Source: Desulfobacterales bacterium
GTDB taxonomy: Bacteria; Desulfobacterota; Desulfobacteria; Desulfobacterales; C00003060
Length of the DNA: 33,432 nucleotides
NCBI GenBank assembly: GCA_023129535.1
Contig: JAGMBW010000046.1
Coordinates: 1 to 33,432 of the forward strand
Direction of reading: 5' to 3'
A program made the translations under genes and the position numbers. The notes beneath the pieces were generated by a model that saw nothing but the letters and a program-made list of their open reading frames with translations, had not been told where the DNA came from and did no database searches. Shown here one piece after another: positions 156 to 30,087 of the stretch (the stretch's first letter is position 1; each line of letters begins with the position of its first letter).

Positions 156-1424
156 CTAATCCTTACCTTTCCCTTTGTAATAATAGTCTCGATACTTGTA
201 GTAATAGCTGTAGTAATGTTTTTCTTCCTTTGGATTCATCCGGTTTAAGACAAATCCCAGGATGGGTGCGTTGATCTGCTTGAGCTGGTCAACGGCCTTA
301 TGGATGATGGCCCGGTTGGCAGCTCCGCCACGCACCACCATAATTACGCCGTCTGCAAAGGCCGAAAGGATCGAGGCATCGCTTACAGAGGTTACCGGCG
401 GCGAATCGATGATCAAGACCTCATAGTCGAACGTATCCTTGAGTATGTTCATAAGCGCAGCCATCCGCCTTGAACCAAGCACCTCGGACGGATTCGGGGG
501 TTTGGAACCACCGGGCAAGGCATGGAGGTTCTTTACATCCGTCTCGATGGTCGAAGAGGCTATCTGCTTGCAAAGGAAGGGTCGTATGCGTAGGCCGGGC
601 ACTTCATCCGTCAGAATATCTCCCAATCTAATCGGGTCGATGATCTCCCGCTCGTACATCACGTGCGAACTTTTTTCAAAACTGTACTTACCGTCTGAAA
701 GGTTGAAGGCCCGACTCAGGCTGTCGATGATTTGAAGCCTGATGGGGCCTCTCAAATGGTCAGGGGTCACGATGCCCATGTTAAGCAGGATGAAACCGAG
801 CCGCTGTCCGGTCTCGGCCACCCTGTTCAGGGCTTCTTTTGCCTGCTCTTCAGTGATTCTGCCGCTGCTGATGAGTACAGAGGCAAGGCGCTTGTCTTTG
901 GGGCGGCCTTTCCAGACCGATGAAACCAGCTTCCCCTTATGAAAGAAAAATCGATAGGCATCGTTATTGTCGGCTACAGTGAGGGTGCCGGTCTTTTCCT
1001 GAAGGTCGATCAGGGTCATGAGATCGCCCATGCTGAGACTGCCGAGGGGACCCTTTTCCACAGGGGTATCAAAGGTTTCAGAGATCAGGCTTGAGACACC
1101 TTTTTTCGGATCAGAGGGAAACAAATCCTTAAAAGTCGCACGCCTTAGGTCACACTCAATAAGAAGGACTTTCTGGCCTGAAAAGGCAAGGGACTCGGCA
1201 AGGTTCACTGCCACGGTGGTCTTTCCCTCCTCAGGGACGGCCCCTGTGACCAGGATGGCTTTTATCGCGGTATCGAGCCTGGCAAACCGGATGTTTGCCC
1301 TGAGCGTGTTGAATGCCTCTGCGAAATGGGATATGAGGCTGAAATCCGCATGACGGGGTATGGACGGGCGGTTGCCCTTTTTAGACCTGGAAGACGTTTT
1401 TTTAGAAAAGAAGGGTATTTTCAT
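156..1424 (-). CDS. BY-type tyrosine autokinase (CpsD/CapB-like) with DUF4388/PATAN + MshEN-like insertion
   Basis: Walker A GAVPEEGKTT, Walker A' VLLIECDLRR, Walker B VLIIDSPP, 'LHALPGGSKPPNPSEVLGSRRM', Tyr-rich C-tail HYYSYYYKYRDYYYKGKGKD. Extra ~175 aa lie between Walker A' and Walker B. Confidence 0.92.
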   Translation of the reverse strand: MKIPFFSKKTSSRSKKGNRPSIPRHADFSLISHFAEAFNTLRANIRFARLDTAIKAILVTGAVPEEGKTTVAVNLAESLAFSGQKVLLIECDLRRATFKDLFPSDPKKGVSSLISETFDTPVEKGPLGSLSMGDLMTLIDLQEKTGTLTVADNNDAYRFFFHKGKLVSSVWKGRPKDKRLASVLISSGRITEEQAKEALNRVAETGQRLGFILLNMGIVTPDHLRGPIRLQIIDSLSRAFNLSDGKYSFEKSSHVMYEREIIDPIRLGDILTDEVPGLRIRPFLCKQIASSTIETDVKNLHALPGGSKPPNPSEVLGSRRMAALMNILKDTFDYEVLIIDSPPVTSVSDASILSAFADGVIMVVRGGAANRAIIHKAVDQLKQINAPILGFVLNRMNPKEEKHYYSYYYKYRDYYYKGKGKD

Positions 1425-2944
1425 ATCCGACTCTTGACTCCTGAGACATCGTGGACAACGGTCAGCACAGGAAGCCCAAATTGGCGCTCAATGTCTTCCG
1501 GGTTCCGCACTGTCTGGTCCAGATACTCGAAGAAAAAGGCAAGACCAGTCCCCATGGTCAGGCCCACGATTATGGCAAGGAGGATATTGAGCTTCTTCTT
1601 TGGTTTGATCGGTGCTCCTGGAACCTCGGCCCTGTCAACAATCCGGATATTGCCGGTCTTCATCTCCTCTGTGATGGAGGTCTCCTTAAACCGCTTGATC
1701 AACAAGTCATACATCTGCCTGGCGCTTTCGGCTTCTCTATACAGCACCCCGAATTCAATCGCTTTCTGGTTCAATTCGAGGGATTCCTGCTTCTGTTTTG
1801 CAAGGGAGTTCCTTAATGACCTTTCCCTTGCCAGCGCTACCTCATATTCGTTCTTCAAAGAGCCGACCACCTTTTGAATCTCGCGTTGCTTCCGGTTTTC
1901 AAGGGTGGCAAGCTCGGCCTTGATTGCTATGATTTGTGGATGGTTCTTGCCATATTTTTCGGATAGCTCTGAGAGCCTCTTTGAAAGCTCCACCTCGCTC
2001 TGTTTGATAGTCCGGATCAGCTCGCTATTCAGGATTTCAGGGATGGAATCAAGCTTCCCCTTTGACTTCATGAGCCGTCTTGTCTGTTCGTGGCGGGTCT
2101 CAGCCTCTACCCGCCTTGCCTCCGCCGCAATCACCTGGCTGTTTAGTTCAGCTAATTTTTGGGCCGTTATCTTCTCGGTATCACTCGAAAAATCAGTTAT
2201 GATCCCATGCTGCTCCTTATATTTTTGAAATCTCACTTCAGCGGCCTCAACCTTCTTCCTCTCCTCTTGAATCCGTCTGTCGAGCCACGTCACCGCATCC
2301 TGTGCTGCCTTGAGCTTGGTCTCTAAGTTCTGGTCAATATAGGTCTGGGCAAGGGTATTGGCTATCTTTGTGGCCAGCACCGGGTCTTTTGCATCAAAAT
2401 TCACGTTTACAAGCCTGCTGTTTCTTATGGGCTCAACCTTGATCCTTCCGATAAAACCTGACACCAAAGACGAGTCTGAATCGACCTGGTCAAATCCATC
2501 ACCCCCACCTGGCCTCTTTTCTGTCTTAAATAAGCAGACAATCGACTTTTGCCAGGAAGCCACGGTTTCGCTGATCGATCTTTTCATGTTCGAAAAGAGA
2601 TCATCCTTCGGTGGTGGGAAAAACTCCTCACTTTCGTGTAACTTAAGCCTTCTTATAACATCCCTGGCAATCGACCTGCTTTCGATGATCTTGTACTGGG
2701 TCTGGTAATAATCTGTCCCGGAAGCATCAACAGACATCACCTCCTGGATGGAGACCACGTTCGGGTTTTCCTTCTCTATGATCAGCTTTACTGTGGCCCT
2801 GTATATAGGCGTCGCGGTCAGGGTCGCAATGGCCACAGTGACCACAATGATGCTGAAACAGGTGATAATGGTCCACCTGCGCTTCATGATTACCCAAAGG
2901 TAATCCCTCAAGTTTATCTCTTGTTCCGTATCTTCTTCCATCAT
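1421..2944 (-). CDS. Wzz/GumC-family polysaccharide chain-length determinant
   Basis: N-terminal INLRDYLWVIMKRRWTI TM, YRATVKLIIE, long coiled coil, PGAPIKPKKKLNILLAIIVGL C-terminal TM. Overlaps the BY-kinase start by 4 nt. Confidence 0.92.
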   Translation of the reverse strand: MMEEDTEQEINLRDYLWVIMKRRWTIITCFSIIVVTVAIATLTATPIYRATVKLIIEKENPNVVSIQEVMSVDASGTDYYQTQYKIIESRSIARDVIRRLKLHESEEFFPPPKDDLFSNMKRSISETVASWQKSIVCLFKTEKRPGGGDGFDQVDSDSSLVSGFIGRIKVEPIRNSRLVNVNFDAKDPVLATKIANTLAQTYIDQNLETKLKAAQDAVTWLDRRIQEERKKVEAAEVRFQKYKEQHGIITDFSSDTEKITAQKLAELNSQVIAAEARRVEAETRHEQTRRLMKSKGKLDSIPEILNSELIRTIKQSEVELSKRLSELSEKYGKNHPQIIAIKAELATLENRKQREIQKVVGSLKNEYEVALARERSLRNSLAKQKQESLELNQKAIEFGVLYREAESARQMYDLLIKRFKETSITEEMKTGNIRIVDRAEVPGAPIKPKKKLNILLAIIVGLTMGTGLAFFFEYLDQTVRNPEDIERQFGLPVLTVVHDVSGVKSRI

Positions 2945-2970: not shown

Positions 2971-4005
2971 CTAAAAAAAACTCTCCGGCACAACAATAAT
3001 ATCATTCGGCTTCAAGAGAATATCCTGGGCCTTTTTCCCTTCACCTGTAATCTCGTCGACTCTCACATGAATGATCTTTTCAACGCCATCTTCTATCCTG
3101 ATGATCTTGGTGCGATTTCGAGCCGCAATCCTCGTGAACCCCCCTGCCATCCCAATCGCCTCGACAAGTGTGATGTCCCTGTCTTTAATCACGTAATCCC
3201 CTGGATTCTTGACCTCGCCTATCATAAATACCTTGTCGGCCTTGGGGATATAGATGACATCCTTGTCAAACACCTGAAGGTTGGAAAGGGGGTCCTCGCC
3301 ATCCAGAAGCCGGCGAAGGTGGATGTCAATCCCTATCTTTTCACCCTTAGCGCCACCGACACTCTCGGTCCTTAAAATGGTAATCTTGTTCCCACCCTCT
3401 GCAAAATCGACGCCCCCTGCCCTCGATATAACCTCCAGCACCCTTTCTGAGGCCCTCAGCTCATAGCTCCCCGGCCTTTCCACAGCGCCGAGTATGAGGA
3501 CTTTTTTGCTTAAATACTCCTTCACAAGGACTGAGACATGAGGATTGACGAGAAATTGCCCTTCGGCCAGCCTGACGGCAATCATGTTTTCTATCTCAGC
3601 CGTGGTTTTATCTGCAACCTTGACTCTCCCGATCAAGGGAAATGTAATATACCCGTCTGCCGAAACACGCACTGCATCCCGCGAAAGGTCCGGTTCTTCA
3701 TAAACGATAATGCCCAGCACATCATAGCCCCCCGCCGTGTAATCAAGGGCGTCTGAACTTTCGAGCCCCCCCTGCCTTTCAAGATATTCACGGGCTGAGA
3801 TGTGTGGTGCTTTCTTAATCACATGATTGATCTCAGAACTTATTCCTTTTCCCTTTTGAGCCTCTTTTATCCTGGCGATCTCTGCCCGTTCGGTATCGTG
3901 AAGGGAACTCAGGTCATCATGAACGGTGGCAACGCGGACAACTTCGCCCCCACCGCACGCCCCTACAAAAAAGCAAAATAGTGTGAAAAGGATAACGCGG
4001 ATCAT
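2971..4005 (-). CDS. Polysaccharide export lipoprotein (Wza-like, Poly_export + SLBB domains)
   Basis: Lipoprotein-like N-terminus LFCFFVGACGGG; YDVLGIIVYEEPDLSRDAVRVSADGYITFPLIGRVKVADKT; two SLBB-like segments (VLILGAVERPGSYEL, VFMIGEVKNPGDYVI). Confidence 0.92.
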   Translation of the reverse strand: MIRVILFTLFCFFVGACGGGEVVRVATVHDDLSSLHDTERAEIARIKEAQKGKGISSEINHVIKKAPHISAREYLERQGGLESSDALDYTAGGYDVLGIIVYEEPDLSRDAVRVSADGYITFPLIGRVKVADKTTAEIENMIAVRLAEGQFLVNPHVSVLVKEYLSKKVLILGAVERPGSYELRASERVLEVISRAGGVDFAEGGNKITILRTESVGGAKGEKIGIDIHLRRLLDGEDPLSNLQVFDKDVIYIPKADKVFMIGEVKNPGDYVIKDRDITLVEAIGMAGGFTRIAARNRTKIIRIEDGVEKIIHVRVDEITGEGKKAQDILLKPNDIIVVPESFF

Positions 4006-4111: not shown

Positions 4112-5398
4112 TTAAAACACAGCGCTTATCTTAATCGTCCCCTTATTCACGGTATATTCATTCTGGTCGTAGTTTGAGTCTCTATCCTTGTATTCATAAT
4201 CGAGAGATGCCTTGAGCCATGCTTGAATCCTGTACTCTACCCCTATCTGGCAAGTATAAGTATCGTCGGTCCGTTCTTTCTCGCCCGGGTGCGCATCATA
4301 CTCATTTTCCCCGTACTCAAAACCAAGGTTCAGGTAAAATCGTTCAACCAGTGCTTGATTCAGGCCAAGCCCAACTGCCGTATCTGTATAGTAATTGCTG
4401 GTTGTTGCCGTAGATTGCTTAATTGACCGCATAACCTTTGCTCTTAACCTGGTCTTTTCACTCGCTCTATACAACAGCCTGGTCTCTGCTACCCACGTGT
4501 CTTCGTCTTCGTACTTATTGCCAGCCGGGTCGCGATCATTGTCATACGCCTTATCTCCCCAACCAAATTTCACGTCCCCGCTAATCTTGGCACCGGGATC
4601 CCAGTGCAAACCGATAAGATAATCATTCAATTTATAATTCTCTGATGTTTCGCTGCTATAGGTGTCGCCTGCATATACGGCGCCATCCTCCTGTCCCGTA
4701 TAGTCGCGCTCAGTGCGGCGATACTGGACCAAAACTGAGGTCTTGGGCATAAACTTGTAATAAAACGTGCCGCCGTAAATATGGTCCTTTTTATCCTGCC
4801 ACTCGTCTTCAGAACGATCAAACTCTTCTACAAAATTCCTGTATTGGGCCTCGATGGTAAAGCGGTCCGCAAACTCATACCCACCAGAGACGTTGACAGT
4901 GTTGTTCCAGCGCTCGACCTTTGGCACGCCCAGGCCGTATTCCTCTGCAGTTCCGTAAGGATCCTCGGTGTCAATGTAACGGTCGTCGGCCTTCAGATAA
5001 AGGCCCAGGGGCGATTTGAGACCAAAACCTCCCGTCACGGTGTGCATCTCATAGTTATTGTCGTCATTGTCAGTATAGGCAACGAGATCAACTTCATAGC
5101 CTGCATTTACATAATTTCCGGGCTCCCCCCTGAAAGAAAATCCGATCCCGGGCGTCACCGTATTGATATAGTCCGACTCCTCATCTATTGGGCCATCTCC
5201 TGGGACAAGATAGATATTATCATTTAGCTCACCCTTGTATGCAACCTTTGGCGTCACTTTTACCTTGCCAATGCGTATGTTCCCCTGGGCAAAAGCCGGC
5301 ACAGGACGACAAAACAGGGCCAAACTGCCCACCAGTATCAGACAAAGAGCGGCTGTCATTGATCTCTTCATGGCTTCCTCCACCACCCGTTTAATCAA
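4112..5398 (-). CDS. Outer-membrane beta-barrel protein of the EPS locus
   Basis: Signal peptide (ALCLILVGSLALFCRPVPAFAQ), alternating amphipathic strands rich in Tyr/Asp, terminal GTIKISAVF ending in Phe. Confidence 0.8.
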   Translation of the reverse strand: MIKRVVEEAMKRSMTAALCLILVGSLALFCRPVPAFAQGNIRIGKVKVTPKVAYKGELNDNIYLVPGDGPIDEESDYINTVTPGIGFSFRGEPGNYVNAGYEVDLVAYTDNDDNNYEMHTVTGGFGLKSPLGLYLKADDRYIDTEDPYGTAEEYGLGVPKVERWNNTVNVSGGYEFADRFTIEAQYRNFVEEFDRSEDEWQDKKDHIYGGTFYYKFMPKTSVLVQYRRTERDYTGQEDGAVYAGDTYSSETSENYKLNDYLIGLHWDPGAKISGDVKFGWGDKAYDNDRDPAGNKYEDEDTWVAETRLLYRASEKTRLRAKVMRSIKQSTATTSNYYTDTAVGLGLNQALVERFYLNLGFEYGENEYDAHPGEKERTDDTYTCQIGVEYRIQAWLKASLDYEYKDRDSNYDQNEYTVNKGTIKISAVF

Positions 5399-7200: not shown

Positions 7201-8253
7201 GTGGATCTCTTGAGTAACACTAAAGGTTTTTGTCAAACGTTCCGATATGAAGAGCGGTTGAAAGGTATATTTACCATGGCATACTATCAGAAAGATCTCG
7301 ATTCAACTGAAACCCACCTATTAAATCAGTGTTTTGACACCTGTGTGGATCCCTTGAAAACGATTATGGGTACCACTCGGATTGGAAACCTCCTCTTAAA
7401 AAAAGAACATGCCATCACTGAGGCCCAATTGAGAGAAGCCTTAGAGACACAGAAAAAGGAACACCGGTTTTTGGGAGAAATTCTGGTCAAAATGGGCGTG
7501 GTGGAGCGAGAGAAAACAGACCGTGTATTGCACTTTCAAAATAGATTAAGGTCCCAATTGGTTTCCACATTCTGCCGGAAAAAATTACGATTAGGGCAAA
7601 TCCTGGTAAACACACGGACCATCACACGCCAGCAACTCAAGGAGGCCCTGAAAAAGCAGAAAAGGACCGGGGAACTTTTGGGGAAAATCCTGTCTGAAAT
7701 GAAAGCCATCTCCCAAAATACCCTGCAAAGATTTCTGAAAATCCAGAAGGATCTTAAGAAGATTGTGGCCATGGCCGGTTTTGCATTACTGCTGGCTGGT
7801 TGTGCCACAGGCATGAGTTACAACTACCAGGGAGTAACATCGGCCACCCCCTACGATGCCAAATACAAGCGGGTTCGGGACTATCTAAAAACGGCTTACC
7901 GATTTAAATATGAGGCCGACACCAAGGGTACTGATCACTGGCAGTTACCCGAAAAGACCGAAAGGTACGGCAAGGGAGACTGTGAGGACAAGGCCATCTG
8001 GCTCTACAGTAAGCTTCTGAACGACGGATTTGATGACGTTCGGTTGATTATTGGCAAGCTGAGGAAGGATAGCCCCGTGCTCCATGCCTGGGTAGCCTGG
8101 TATCAGCAAGAAAAAGTCTATATCTTAGACCCCACCAATGAAAGCCTGATCTGGGAGGCCAGACAATACTCCAGAGAGCATTATGAGCCCTACTATTCCT
8201 TTTACCGGGAAAAGTCCTGGACCCATGTTACGGCCCAACCGGAAGGTTTATAG
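7201..8253 (+). CDS. MshEN-like repeat protein with internal lipobox/TM and C-terminal transglutaminase-like cysteine proteinase domain (alternative ATG start at 7276)
   Basis: RIGNLLLKK.., FLGEILVKMGVVEREKTDRVLHFQ, RLGQILVNTRTITRQQLKEALKKQ, LLGKILSEMKAISQNTLQRFLKIQ; internal KKIVAMAGFALLLAGCATG; catalytic-like GDCEDKA / LHAWVAW / YILDPT. Confidence 0.75.
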   Translation: MDLLSNTKGFCQTFRYEERLKGIFTMAYYQKDLDSTETHLLNQCFDTCVDPLKTIMGTTRIGNLLLKKEHAITEAQLREALETQKKEHRFLGEILVKMGVVEREKTDRVLHFQNRLRSQLVSTFCRKKLRLGQILVNTRTITRQQLKEALKKQKRTGELLGKILSEMKAISQNTLQRFLKIQKDLKKIVAMAGFALLLAGCATGMSYNYQGVTSATPYDAKYKRVRDYLKTAYRFKYEADTKGTDHWQLPEKTERYGKGDCEDKAIWLYSKLLNDGFDDVRLIIGKLRKDSPVLHAWVAWYQQEKVYILDPTNESLIWEARQYSREHYEPYYSFYREKSWTHVTAQPEGL

Positions 8254-17491: not shown

Positions 17492-17619
17492 AGATACCAA
17501 AATCCGCCGCTTGAATTTGGGCGGACGTTACTTGGGGCCTTTTTGTGATTTAATCAAATTCTATGTTTGCCTCAACTTTTGAGGGTTACGAATTTATTAA
17601 ACATGGAGGAGAAAAGATT

Positions 17620-18727
17620 ATGGCTGGTCGAAGACGCATTGGCGAAATGCTCATCGAGGCAGGAGTTTTGGATGAGGCCTCCCTGGAACGCGCGCTGGTG
17701 ATTCAGAAGGAGACCGCCCGCAAACTGGGCGATATCCTCATGCAGGAAGGTCTCATCGAAGAAAATGTTCTGCTCGATTTCCTGAGGAATCAATTACACG
17801 TCGATGTGATTTCAAGCGATGACCTTAAGATTGCTGACGAGATCTGGGAAAAAGTTTCGGAGGAAGTCGTCAAGAAATACAATGTACTCCCCTTGAAAAT
17901 TGAGAACGGAGAACTAACAGTGGCCATGTCGGATCCGCTCAATCTCGTGGCCATCGATGACCTGAGGTTCGCCACCAGTTGCTACCATGTTAAAGTGTTT
18001 CTGGCAGCGGAGTCCACCATCAAGAATATCCTTCACGATCGGTTTGACAGTCATGGGCTTATTTATGACATCATAGACCATGGGAAGTTATTCCAAAAGG
18101 CCCTGGACACGATCGACAAAAACGAGATTCCCGATATTCCCGTTGTGAAGGTAGAGGAAGAAACCATTTCCAGCCATGTTATTGAGCTGGAGTCCCATAC
18201 TCCGCCCATCATCAGTCTGGTCAATTACATTTTTGTTGAGGCCCTCCAGCGTAATTCGAGCGACATCCATATTGAGCCCTATCAGACCTATTTCCGGATC
18301 CGATTACGTATCGACGGTATGCTCCACACGATCCTCACTCCACCCCACAGGTTGCATGTTTACATTGTTTCTAGAATCAAGATCATGAGCGAGATGGACA
18401 TTTCCAAATGAGCCCACACCGGAAGAAATCGAGGAATTTGGCCTGGACGACTCTTTTCTTTCGGATGCCGTCCTCAACAAGGGGGAAGGATGTAGCCATT
18501 GCATGGGAACGGGGTATTCGGGAAGAGTGGCTGTCTTTGAGGTGCTGTTCGTAGGCCCAAAGATCCGGGAAATTGCCAAAGACCATGGCCGGAGCGATGC
18601 CATCGGGCAGGCCGCTGCAGAGGAAGGTATCCGCACGATACTGGATGACGGTCTGGACAAGGTTCGTCAGGGTATCACCACTTTTGACGAAGTGCGGCGA
18701 GTGCTCATTGCTGGTGCGGAGGATTGA
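17620..18727 (+). pseudogene. GspE/PilB-type ATPase with deleted catalytic core and frameshift
   Basis: MshEN domain + N-terminal ATPase part ending ...SRIKIMSEMDISK*; other frame resumes at 18410 with EPTPEEIEEFGLDDSFLSDAVLNKGEGCSHCMGTGYSGRVAVFEVL. Walker A, Asp box and Walker B are missing. Confidence 0.88.
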
Positions 18728-28539: not shown

Positions 28540-30087
28540 ATGAGTGAACCTATGAAAATATTGGTTCTTGATGATGACGAAATGATCCTTGAGGTTTTCA
28601 AGGATTTTTTTGACAGAAAAGAGACGTATTCGATCTTGACAGCCCGAGACGGTGTCGAAGGCCTGGAGATTTGTCAGCAAAACAAAGTCGATTTTTGTTT
28701 TACAGATCTCAATATGCCAGGAATGGATGGGATAAAGTTTACGAATAAAATCCATGAGCTCGACAACACCATACCGGTCGTTGTTATAACCGGATATCCG
28801 ACTATGGATAACGCGATAGCTACCCTGAGACACGGGGTAGTGGACTTCCTGGTCAAACCGTTCCATATTAGTGAAATAGAGCTAACGATCAAGAGGGCTT
28901 TAGAACAAAAAAAACTCTTTGTTGAAAATATGCTCTTAAAGGAAGAGATTAAGGGCAAGAAACGCCTGGAATCTCTAAATCGGGATTTATCTGATAAAGT
29001 CAAGGATCTCAATATATTGAACCTGATTTTAGAGAAAGTGGACCCGGTTACAAGCGGCTCAGACTTGTTTGACCTCATCGTTAATCTCTCTGCAGGTATC
29101 ACCGGAAGCGACGAAGCCCATTTCTACATAGTCAATGACACCGGGGAAAGACCAACCCGTATCGCCTCATTTTGCAGAGGAGCTAATGGGACTGATCAAG
29201 GTAGGCAAAACTGCATTGAGGAGGTATTGGTCAAAAGAATGTCAGATGGTATACCGCTACTCATTAAGGATGGTTATGATGAATCGCTTGCAAAAGCTGG
29301 CATCCGTTCATTGATTGCTATGCCGTTGAAGATCCGGGAGAAGGTATTTGGCATCCTGGCTGCCATCGTCATGGAGGGATCAGTCCGCTTCACAGAGAAA
29401 GATGTATACTATCTGAATTTTATAGCGACGCGAGCCGGGTTTGTCATAGAAAATGTTGGATTGTACGAAAACATCTACGAGAATCTTTTTGCAACACTTT
29501 ACGCCTTTGTGCAGGCAATCGAGGCCAGAGATCCCTATACCAAGCAGCACTCGAGTCGTGTAACCGAATTCGCGGTCACTACCGCAAAAGAGATGGGATG
29601 TTCCAGTGTAGAACTTGACGTATTAAATTTTTCAGGTCATCTGCATGACATTGGAAAGATCGGAATTCCGGATAGTATTCTCTTGAAACCCGGTCGTCTG
29701 ACCGAGGGGGAATACGAGATTATAAAAACTCACCCCGTCATCGGGGCCAATATCATTGGCCACCTGCAGCTTATGTCTGAAGAGCAGAAAATTATCCGCC
29801 ACCATCACGAGCGATGGGATGGCAACGGATATCCTGATGGCCTTAAGGGTGAATCCATCCCCTTTCTGTCCCGGATTCTGGCTGTGGCTGATGTTTATGA
29901 TGCCATGGCCTCCGACCGTGCCTATCGGAAAAAGCTTGCTGATGAGGTCGTGCTCGAGACGATTCGGCAAGGTGCTGGCACCCAATTTGATACAGAAGTA
30001 GTTTACGCATTCTTGAAGGTCTACGAAAGGGGCGAGATCCGCAGCGAGCACGAACCAGTCCCCTCCGGATTGATGATTGATGATTGA
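28540..30087 (+). CDS. REC-GAF-HD-GYP response regulator (putative c-di-GMP phosphodiesterase)
   Basis: REC ILVLDDDEMI...FTDLNMPGMDG; GAF; HLHDIGKIGIPDSILLKPG...HHERWDGNGYPDGLKGESIPFLSRILAVADVYDAM, complete HD-GYP signature. Confidence 0.95.
   Translation: MSEPMKILVLDDDEMILEVFKDFFDRKETYSILTARDGVEGLEICQQNKVDFCFTDLNMPGMDGIKFTNKIHELDNTIPVVVITGYPTMDNAIATLRHGVVDFLVKPFHISEIELTIKRALEQKKLFVENMLLKEEIKGKKRLESLNRDLSDKVKDLNILNLILEKVDPVTSGSDLFDLIVNLSAGITGSDEAHFYIVNDTGERPTRIASFCRGANGTDQGRQNCIEEVLVKRMSDGIPLLIKDGYDESLAKAGIRSLIAMPLKIREKVFGILAAIVMEGSVRFTEKDVYYLNFIATRAGFVIENVGLYENIYENLFATLYAFVQAIEARDPYTKQHSSRVTEFAVTTAKEMGCSSVELDVLNFSGHLHDIGKIGIPDSILLKPGRLTEGEYEIIKTHPVIGANIIGHLQLMSEEQKIIRHHHERWDGNGYPDGLKGESIPFLSRILAVADVYDAMASDRAYRKKLADEVVLETIRQGAGTQFDTEVVYAFLKVYERGEIRSEHEPVPSGLMIDD

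Follow-up and report, generated by a model that had tools for sequence, protein, structure and literature searches.

Gene cluster and catalytic core

The window, that is, the entire 33,432-nucleotide stretch of DNA from a Desulfobacterales bacterium that was analyzed here, contains an exopolysaccharide gene cluster on the minus strand. The cluster includes a beta-barrel porin (BBP2_2 profile match, 4112..5398; same order in other members), an outer-membrane polysaccharide export (OPX/Wza-like) protein with Poly_export and SLBB domains (2971..4005), an EpsF-like chain-length (PCP) membrane partner in which profile matches detect Wzz and GNVR domains (1421..2944), and a 422-aa BY-kinase with an inserted, predicted regulatory domain (156..1424). 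The start of the kinase gene overlaps the end of the upstream PCP gene by 4 bases. Two other loci of the family were checked; in both, the genes for porin, OPX, PCP, kinase and TPR protein follow one another in this order, in one case with an O-antigen ligase gene next, and at further loci encoding insert-bearing kinases the sizes and succession of the genes agree with this arrangement. This conserved order supports a role of the kinase in the polymerization and export of exopolysaccharide.

The open reading frame was assigned by the TIGR01007 family model (polysaccharide tyrosine autokinase; 166 bits, cut-off 108, in two separate stretches) and by comparison, in both sequence and fold, with the CapAB and Wzc structures. 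The alignment with Staphylococcus CapAB (3bfv) falls into two parts, residues 32-115 and residues 290-408, with only 6 CapAB residues between the halves; CapAB, Wzc and BceF are the top Foldseek matches to the kinase fold, and the Etk kinase domain was matched as well. The N-terminal half (residues 1-116, 1077..1424 on the minus strand, delimited by the CapAB alignment and the AlphaFold model, in which residues 1-51 have low confidence) contains Walker A (GAVPEEGKTT, residues 61-70, 1215..1244) and Walker A' (LLIECDLRR, residues 87-95, 1140..1166). The C-terminal half (residues 287-422, 156..566, same strand, delimited by TIGR01007 and the CapAB alignment) contains Walker B (VLIIDSPP, residues 336-343, 396..419) and a C-terminal tyrosine cluster, YYSYYYKYRDYYY (residues 404-416, 177..215), with 9 tyrosines in an 18-residue stretch. 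By Walker A, Walker B, the tyrosine tail, the family model and the fold, the protein is a BY-kinase, and it is predicted to autophosphorylate.

Walker A, Walker B, the tyrosine cluster, fold, PCP partner and exopolysaccharide cluster are all shared with the characterized BY-kinases (Wzc, Etk, CapB/CapA, BceF, VpsO; TIGR01007), from which the window kinase differs by a domain of approximately 170 residues within the ATPase core and, together with its relatives in the same genus, by two substitutions in conserved motifs. Walker A' in this genus has the form ExD (IECDLR), as opposed to DxD in most insert-bearing kinases, and the EX2RX2R interface motif in helix 2, which we took as a conserved BY-kinase motif but not as family-defining, reads ExxNxxR, with Asn in place of one Arg; the motif is intact in 16 of the 33 insert-bearing kinases. 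In CapB, EX2RX2R provides half of the octamer interface (PMC3795738), so the ring assembly of the window kinase may differ. With both substitutions, the kinases of this genus appear slightly atypical, and their autokinase activity could be reduced.

Architecture and fold of the inserted domain

The extra residues of the window kinase, some 170 in number, occupy a single point of the ATPase domain, between the helix that follows Walker A' and the LPGG..PPNPSE segment; alignment of insert-bearing with ordinary BY-kinases places the inserted domain at residues 118-286 (567..1073, minus strand). An earlier note on this DNA, made from the letters alone, had described about 175 extra residues inside the ATPase core at 549-1061, which corresponds to residues 122-292 of the kinase, followed by Walker B (IIDSPP). 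The two-stretch TIGR01007 match and the split CapAB alignment confirm this observation, and Walker B is indeed found after the insert.

The profile and structure-prediction checks that the earlier note had proposed both point to a folded domain with known relatives. Pfam DUF4388 (PF14332) matches residues 125-261 with 67.9 bits (E 1.1e-18, cut-off 25), and NCBIfam NF053729 (c-di-GMP_motif, MshE-related) matches residues 179-225 with 41.9 bits (cut-off 38). The AlphaFold models, built from shallow alignments of 14-25 rows, have a pLDDT of 86-95 across residues 111-250 of the kinase and a mean pLDDT of 81.7 for the insert alone (25 sequences). The modelled topology is strand, helix, three strands, four helices and closing strand: the N-terminal PATAN/DUF4388 part, defined by PF14332 and AlphaFold (residues 124-175, 900..1055, minus strand), contributes the first strand, the helix and the three strands, and the closing PATAN strand (residues 246-251, 672..689, from the secondary structure of the model) follows the helix bundle. 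When the insert was compared with the PDB using Foldseek, MshE with c-di-GMP ranked first (1.1 Å over 54 residues, probability 1.00), and PilF-GSPIIB was superimposed at 1.0 Å over 53 residues; the E-values for the whole insert are weak (0.09 and above) because the matches span only about one third of the domain, and no PATAN-like fold was present among these PDB matches.

Since the four helices sit between PATAN strands, the insert is one composite domain, in the model an MshEN four-helix bundle enclosed by a PATAN (DUF4388) sandwich. Thus, both modules named in the earlier note are present and its assignment of the MshEN fold is backed by the profiles, AlphaFold and Foldseek, but the side-by-side layout that it implied gives way to a nested one. 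The same composite domain is found in the long form of the DUF4388/PATAN proteins of Desulfobacterota, and the module is descended from a c-di-GMP receptor fold common in this phylum. DUF4388 domains of Desulfobacterota fall into two size classes of about 99 and about 155 residues; among 30 free-standing cases that were read, none of which is a BY-kinase, 27 contain the MshEN bundle and the 3 short ones lack it.

Distribution and origin of the insert

A search for other BY-kinases with the same insertion site, as suggested in the earlier note, covered relatives, the phylum and a named genome collection and identified 33 distinct kinases with an insert at the same point. The named collection was searched with a 6-row insert alignment, and this search rested on a single peptide pattern; the named records obtained are metagenome assemblies of Desulfobacterales, Desulfobacteraceae and 'Deltaproteobacteria'. 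Within the phylum, 14 of 396 genomes (including that of the window) match at E 1e-60 or better, and within the genus of the window the insert-bearing kinase occurs in 9 of the 21 other genomes. The insert-bearing kinases are either free-standing (open frames of approximately 410-520 aa) or joined to the chain-length protein in one polypeptide (860-950 aa). All 25 scanned inserts match DUF4388 and all 25 match NF053729 (E up to 0.01 in each case), and 33 of the 34 inserts examined retain the MshEN bundle. The single case without it is a kinase fragment (L045, G061:C9, one of the 14 phylum matches) that retains the PATAN strands as if the bundle had been lost by in-frame deletion; the contig that carries it is 2.3 kb long, the assembly is 66% complete, and the fragment may be artefactual. 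In another insert-bearing kinase of the window's genus (L008, 1303-2733), the N-terminal kinase segment is partly duplicated in tandem.

In 15 of 15 ordinary BY-kinases of relatives, the insertion site holds between -3 and 30 residues, that is, it lies in a short, variable connection of the fold, as would be expected if the insertion were neutral and merely tolerated, with no regulatory role. This explanation appears highly improbable given that many families of the phylum have kept the insert, both in fused and in free-standing kinases, and that it is under purifying selection broadly comparable to that on the kinase: among eight copies from the same genus, pairwise dN/dS is approximately 0.1-0.5 for MshEN, 0.2-0.65 for PATAN and 0.15-0.45 for the kinase, which implies that the insert is under constraint.

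In the kinase-only tree the insert requires 2 changes, and 14% of the bootstrap trees give 1, so that the tree seems compatible with one or two origins of the insert. Chance or an assembly artefact as the source of the architecture is ruled out by the 33 homologues, and local duplication of a neighbouring DUF4388 gene is ruled out because the kinase holds the only DUF4388 domain of the genome. Insert-bearing kinases were not found on plasmids: among 430 plasmid records that match the window kinase, none has a match covering at least 80% of the query in one place.

All parts of this protein are known; the combination and the position of the insert appear new, and a search of the open-access literature yielded no report that connects MshEN or DUF4388 with a BY-kinase. 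A related case is that of the EpsG chain-length tyrosine kinases (TIGR03029): several inserts match the first 60 or so positions of this model with their MshEN part (up to 26.6 bits); the MshEN-like stretch of EpsG is N-terminal, whereas that of the window kinase lies inside the ATPase core. Judging from these matches, EpsG may be regarded as a precedent for the association of a BY-kinase with MshEN. EpsG itself was not found in 247 genomes of the phylum, in a search in which the positive control gave no match either.

The MshEN motifs and the putative c-di-GMP pocket

In the MshEN domain, 24-residue motifs are separated by a 5-residue spacer, and the key contacts (numbered here after VcMshEN) are R9, L10, G11, L25, L29 and Q32 in motif I and R38, L39, G40, L54, L58 and Q61 in motif II, along with the structural G18 and G47 (PMC5013675). 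The two motifs that the earlier note had placed at 732-890 are both present there. Compared with the MshEN consensus, motif I, RLASVLISSGRITEEQAKEALNRV (residues 179-202, 819..890, minus strand), reads R, L, A, G18, A, L, V at the key positions, that is, it retains R9 and L10 and is degenerate at three contacts (G11A, L25A and Q32V). Motif II, RLGFILLNMGIVTPDHLRGPIRLQ (residues 208-231, 732..803, minus strand), reads R, L, G, G47, L, I, Q, with the consensus kept and Ile at the L58 position. The spacer is AETGQ, so the motifs lie 29 residues apart in the 24-5-24 arrangement. Accordingly, the insert shares with the MshEN/GSPII receptors (MshE, PilF, NfrB) the two 24-residue motifs, the 5-residue spacer and the four-helix bundle (approximately 1 Å), but differs from them in its location within a catalytic domain, in its nesting in PATAN, and in motif I, where the consensus contact set, complete in motif II, lacks G11, L25 and Q32. 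On these residues, we class the window insert as having the MshEN fold and not, at present, as a c-di-GMP receptor.

Published mutants indicate what such replacements cost: loss of any conserved hydrophobic contact lowers the affinity more than 10-fold, mutation of Gly11 abrogated binding, and changes of Arg9 or Gln32 led to an up to 5-fold loss (PMC5013675, PMC12002112). PilF-GSPIIA, with deviations comparable to those of the window insert, does not bind c-di-GMP; Ala at its motif II Gly position accounts for an approximately 10-fold loss, and measurable binding required that both Gln residues and the Arg be restored (PMC5013675, PMC12002112). A high affinity for c-di-GMP is therefore unlikely for the window protein. 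Since motif II is complete and GGDEF proteins with an intact GGEEF, candidate diguanylate cyclases, are encoded in the genome, weak or altered binding is possible. In the genus of the window, binding of c-di-GMP by the insert is probably weak or lost.

Two of the replacements in motif I predominate across the family. Ala occupies position 11 in 21 and position 25 in 22 of the 33 kinase inserts; the two occur together in 19, and the G/L combination is found in 7, although for this pairing there are only one or two independent contrasts and the A11/A25 replacement reflects few independent events across the family. Unlike the kinase inserts, the free-standing DUF4388 domains with a bundle mostly keep both residues (G11 in 25 of 27, L25 in 23 of 27), which makes the A11/A25 change characteristic of the inserts. 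Three members of the family keep nearly all key positions, namely L039 (13 of 14), L016 and L042 (12 of 14 each), and G47 is invariant and L39 and L54 nearly invariant in the kinase inserts.

The earlier note had proposed that c-di-GMP may directly gate the kinase and, with it, exopolysaccharide polymerization and export; on this reading, physiological levels of c-di-GMP would suffice for binding to the insert and for switching the enzyme. The proposal is supported in part: the MshEN fold with its 24-5-24 spacing, the complete motif II, the retained R9 and L10 and the NF053729 score above cut-off are all in its favour, as are the GGDEF proteins of the genome, a REC-GAF-HD protein with an HD-GYP-like sequence encoded in the window, and the near-complete motifs of L039, L016 and L042. 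An experimental precedent exists in NfrB of Escherichia coli, in which MshEN likewise acts on exopolysaccharide production and controls the synthase with a Kd of 1 uM; NfrB differs in being a glycosyltransferase with a C-terminal MshEN, a complete motif and demonstrated c-di-GMP binding (PMC8669469). In addition, function is not always lost when a single MshEN residue is changed (PMC5013675, PMC8669469). The proposal is weakened by the motif I pocket, in which each of G11A, L25A and Q32V has a published equivalent that lowers affinity, by the failure of PilF-GSPIIA to bind, and by the fixation of A11 and A25 across most of the family as opposed to the free DUF4388 domains, and we consider it unlikely. 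Judging by the pocket residues, direct control by c-di-GMP seems plausible for the motif-complete relatives and doubtful for the window kinase, and L039, L016 and L042 would be the better candidates. A broader version, which we put forward only tentatively, is that a cyclic dinucleotide bound in the core gates the kinases throughout the family, c-di-GMP in the near-complete members and a weaker or different ligand (e.g., an asymmetric dinucleotide) via the remodelled half-site in those of the A11/A25 type. If this is true, BY-kinases would have a mode of switching that has not been reported before, namely dinucleotide gating inside the catalytic core.

Proposed mode of action

Little is known about the signal input to the tyrosine kinases that govern the chain length and the export of exopolysaccharide. 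The position and conservation of the insert suggest that it regulates the kinase; we infer both the nature of the input and the direction of the effect. The explanation that we favour, with moderate confidence, is a conserved regulatory insert that responds to a protein contact or to weak or altered nucleotide binding rather than to c-di-GMP bound with high affinity, these inputs being likelier because the first half of the binding pocket is remodelled in the genus of the window. On this reading, the protein is the cytoplasmic tyrosine autokinase of Wzx/Wzy-type exopolysaccharide export and works with the membrane protein encoded immediately upstream. BY-kinases have been proposed to cycle through ring assembly, autophosphorylation and dissociation (PMC3795738), and a domain within the ATPase core is well placed to bias this cycle. 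Most likely, binding of a partner or ligand at the insert shifts the cycle and, with it, the control of polymer length and export.

A narrow form of the partner-binding branch of this explanation holds that the insert serves docking or scaffolding only, recruiting the kinase to a partner such as a response regulator, a phosphatase or a pilus or secretion component, and senses no nucleotide. A parallel comes from cyanobacteria, where the pilus machinery is the presumed target of PATAN domains in response regulators and PilB1 a hypothesized binding partner of PixE (PMC7690835); in addition, L045, in which the PATAN strands persist without the bundle, suggests that the bundle is dispensable. Against this stand the potentially artefactual origin of that one fragment, the retention of the bundle in every other insert and the near-absolute conservation of G47, L39 and L54; recruitment alone is thus possible but, in our view, somewhat doubtful.

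The family provides a natural series that extends from ordinary kinases through inserts with a near-complete pocket and with a half-remodelled pocket to one without the helix bundle. With its matched parts, this series allows a direct test of whether a BY-kinase is controlled by nucleotides. The A11/A25 replacement shared by kinase inserts, set against the free-standing domains, is also instructive as an example of a receptor domain whose role may be shifting.

Other genes of the window related to c-di-GMP

Several further genes, all on the plus strand, are related to c-di-GMP signalling by sequence. The REC-GAF-HD protein (28540-30087; HD_5, 135.9 bits) contains HHERWDGNGYP, which is typical of HD-GYP c-di-GMP phosphodiesterases. 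In the frame at 17563-18411, MshEN precedes the beginning of a T2SSE ATPase; the frame ends after approximately 70 residues of the ATPase domain, and the gene therefore appears to be truncated or broken. Finally, a 350-aa open reading frame (7201-8253) encodes a tandem pair of MshEN domains (NF053729, 103.8 bits), followed by a hydrophobic segment that includes LLLAGC, which resembles a lipobox, and by a transglutaminase/BTLCP-like domain with a weak LapG-like match. A nearly full-length relative (68% identity) is present in 1 other of 247 genomes (L110). The 350-aa protein may connect a c-di-GMP sensor, across the membrane, with a LapG-like protease in the periplasm.
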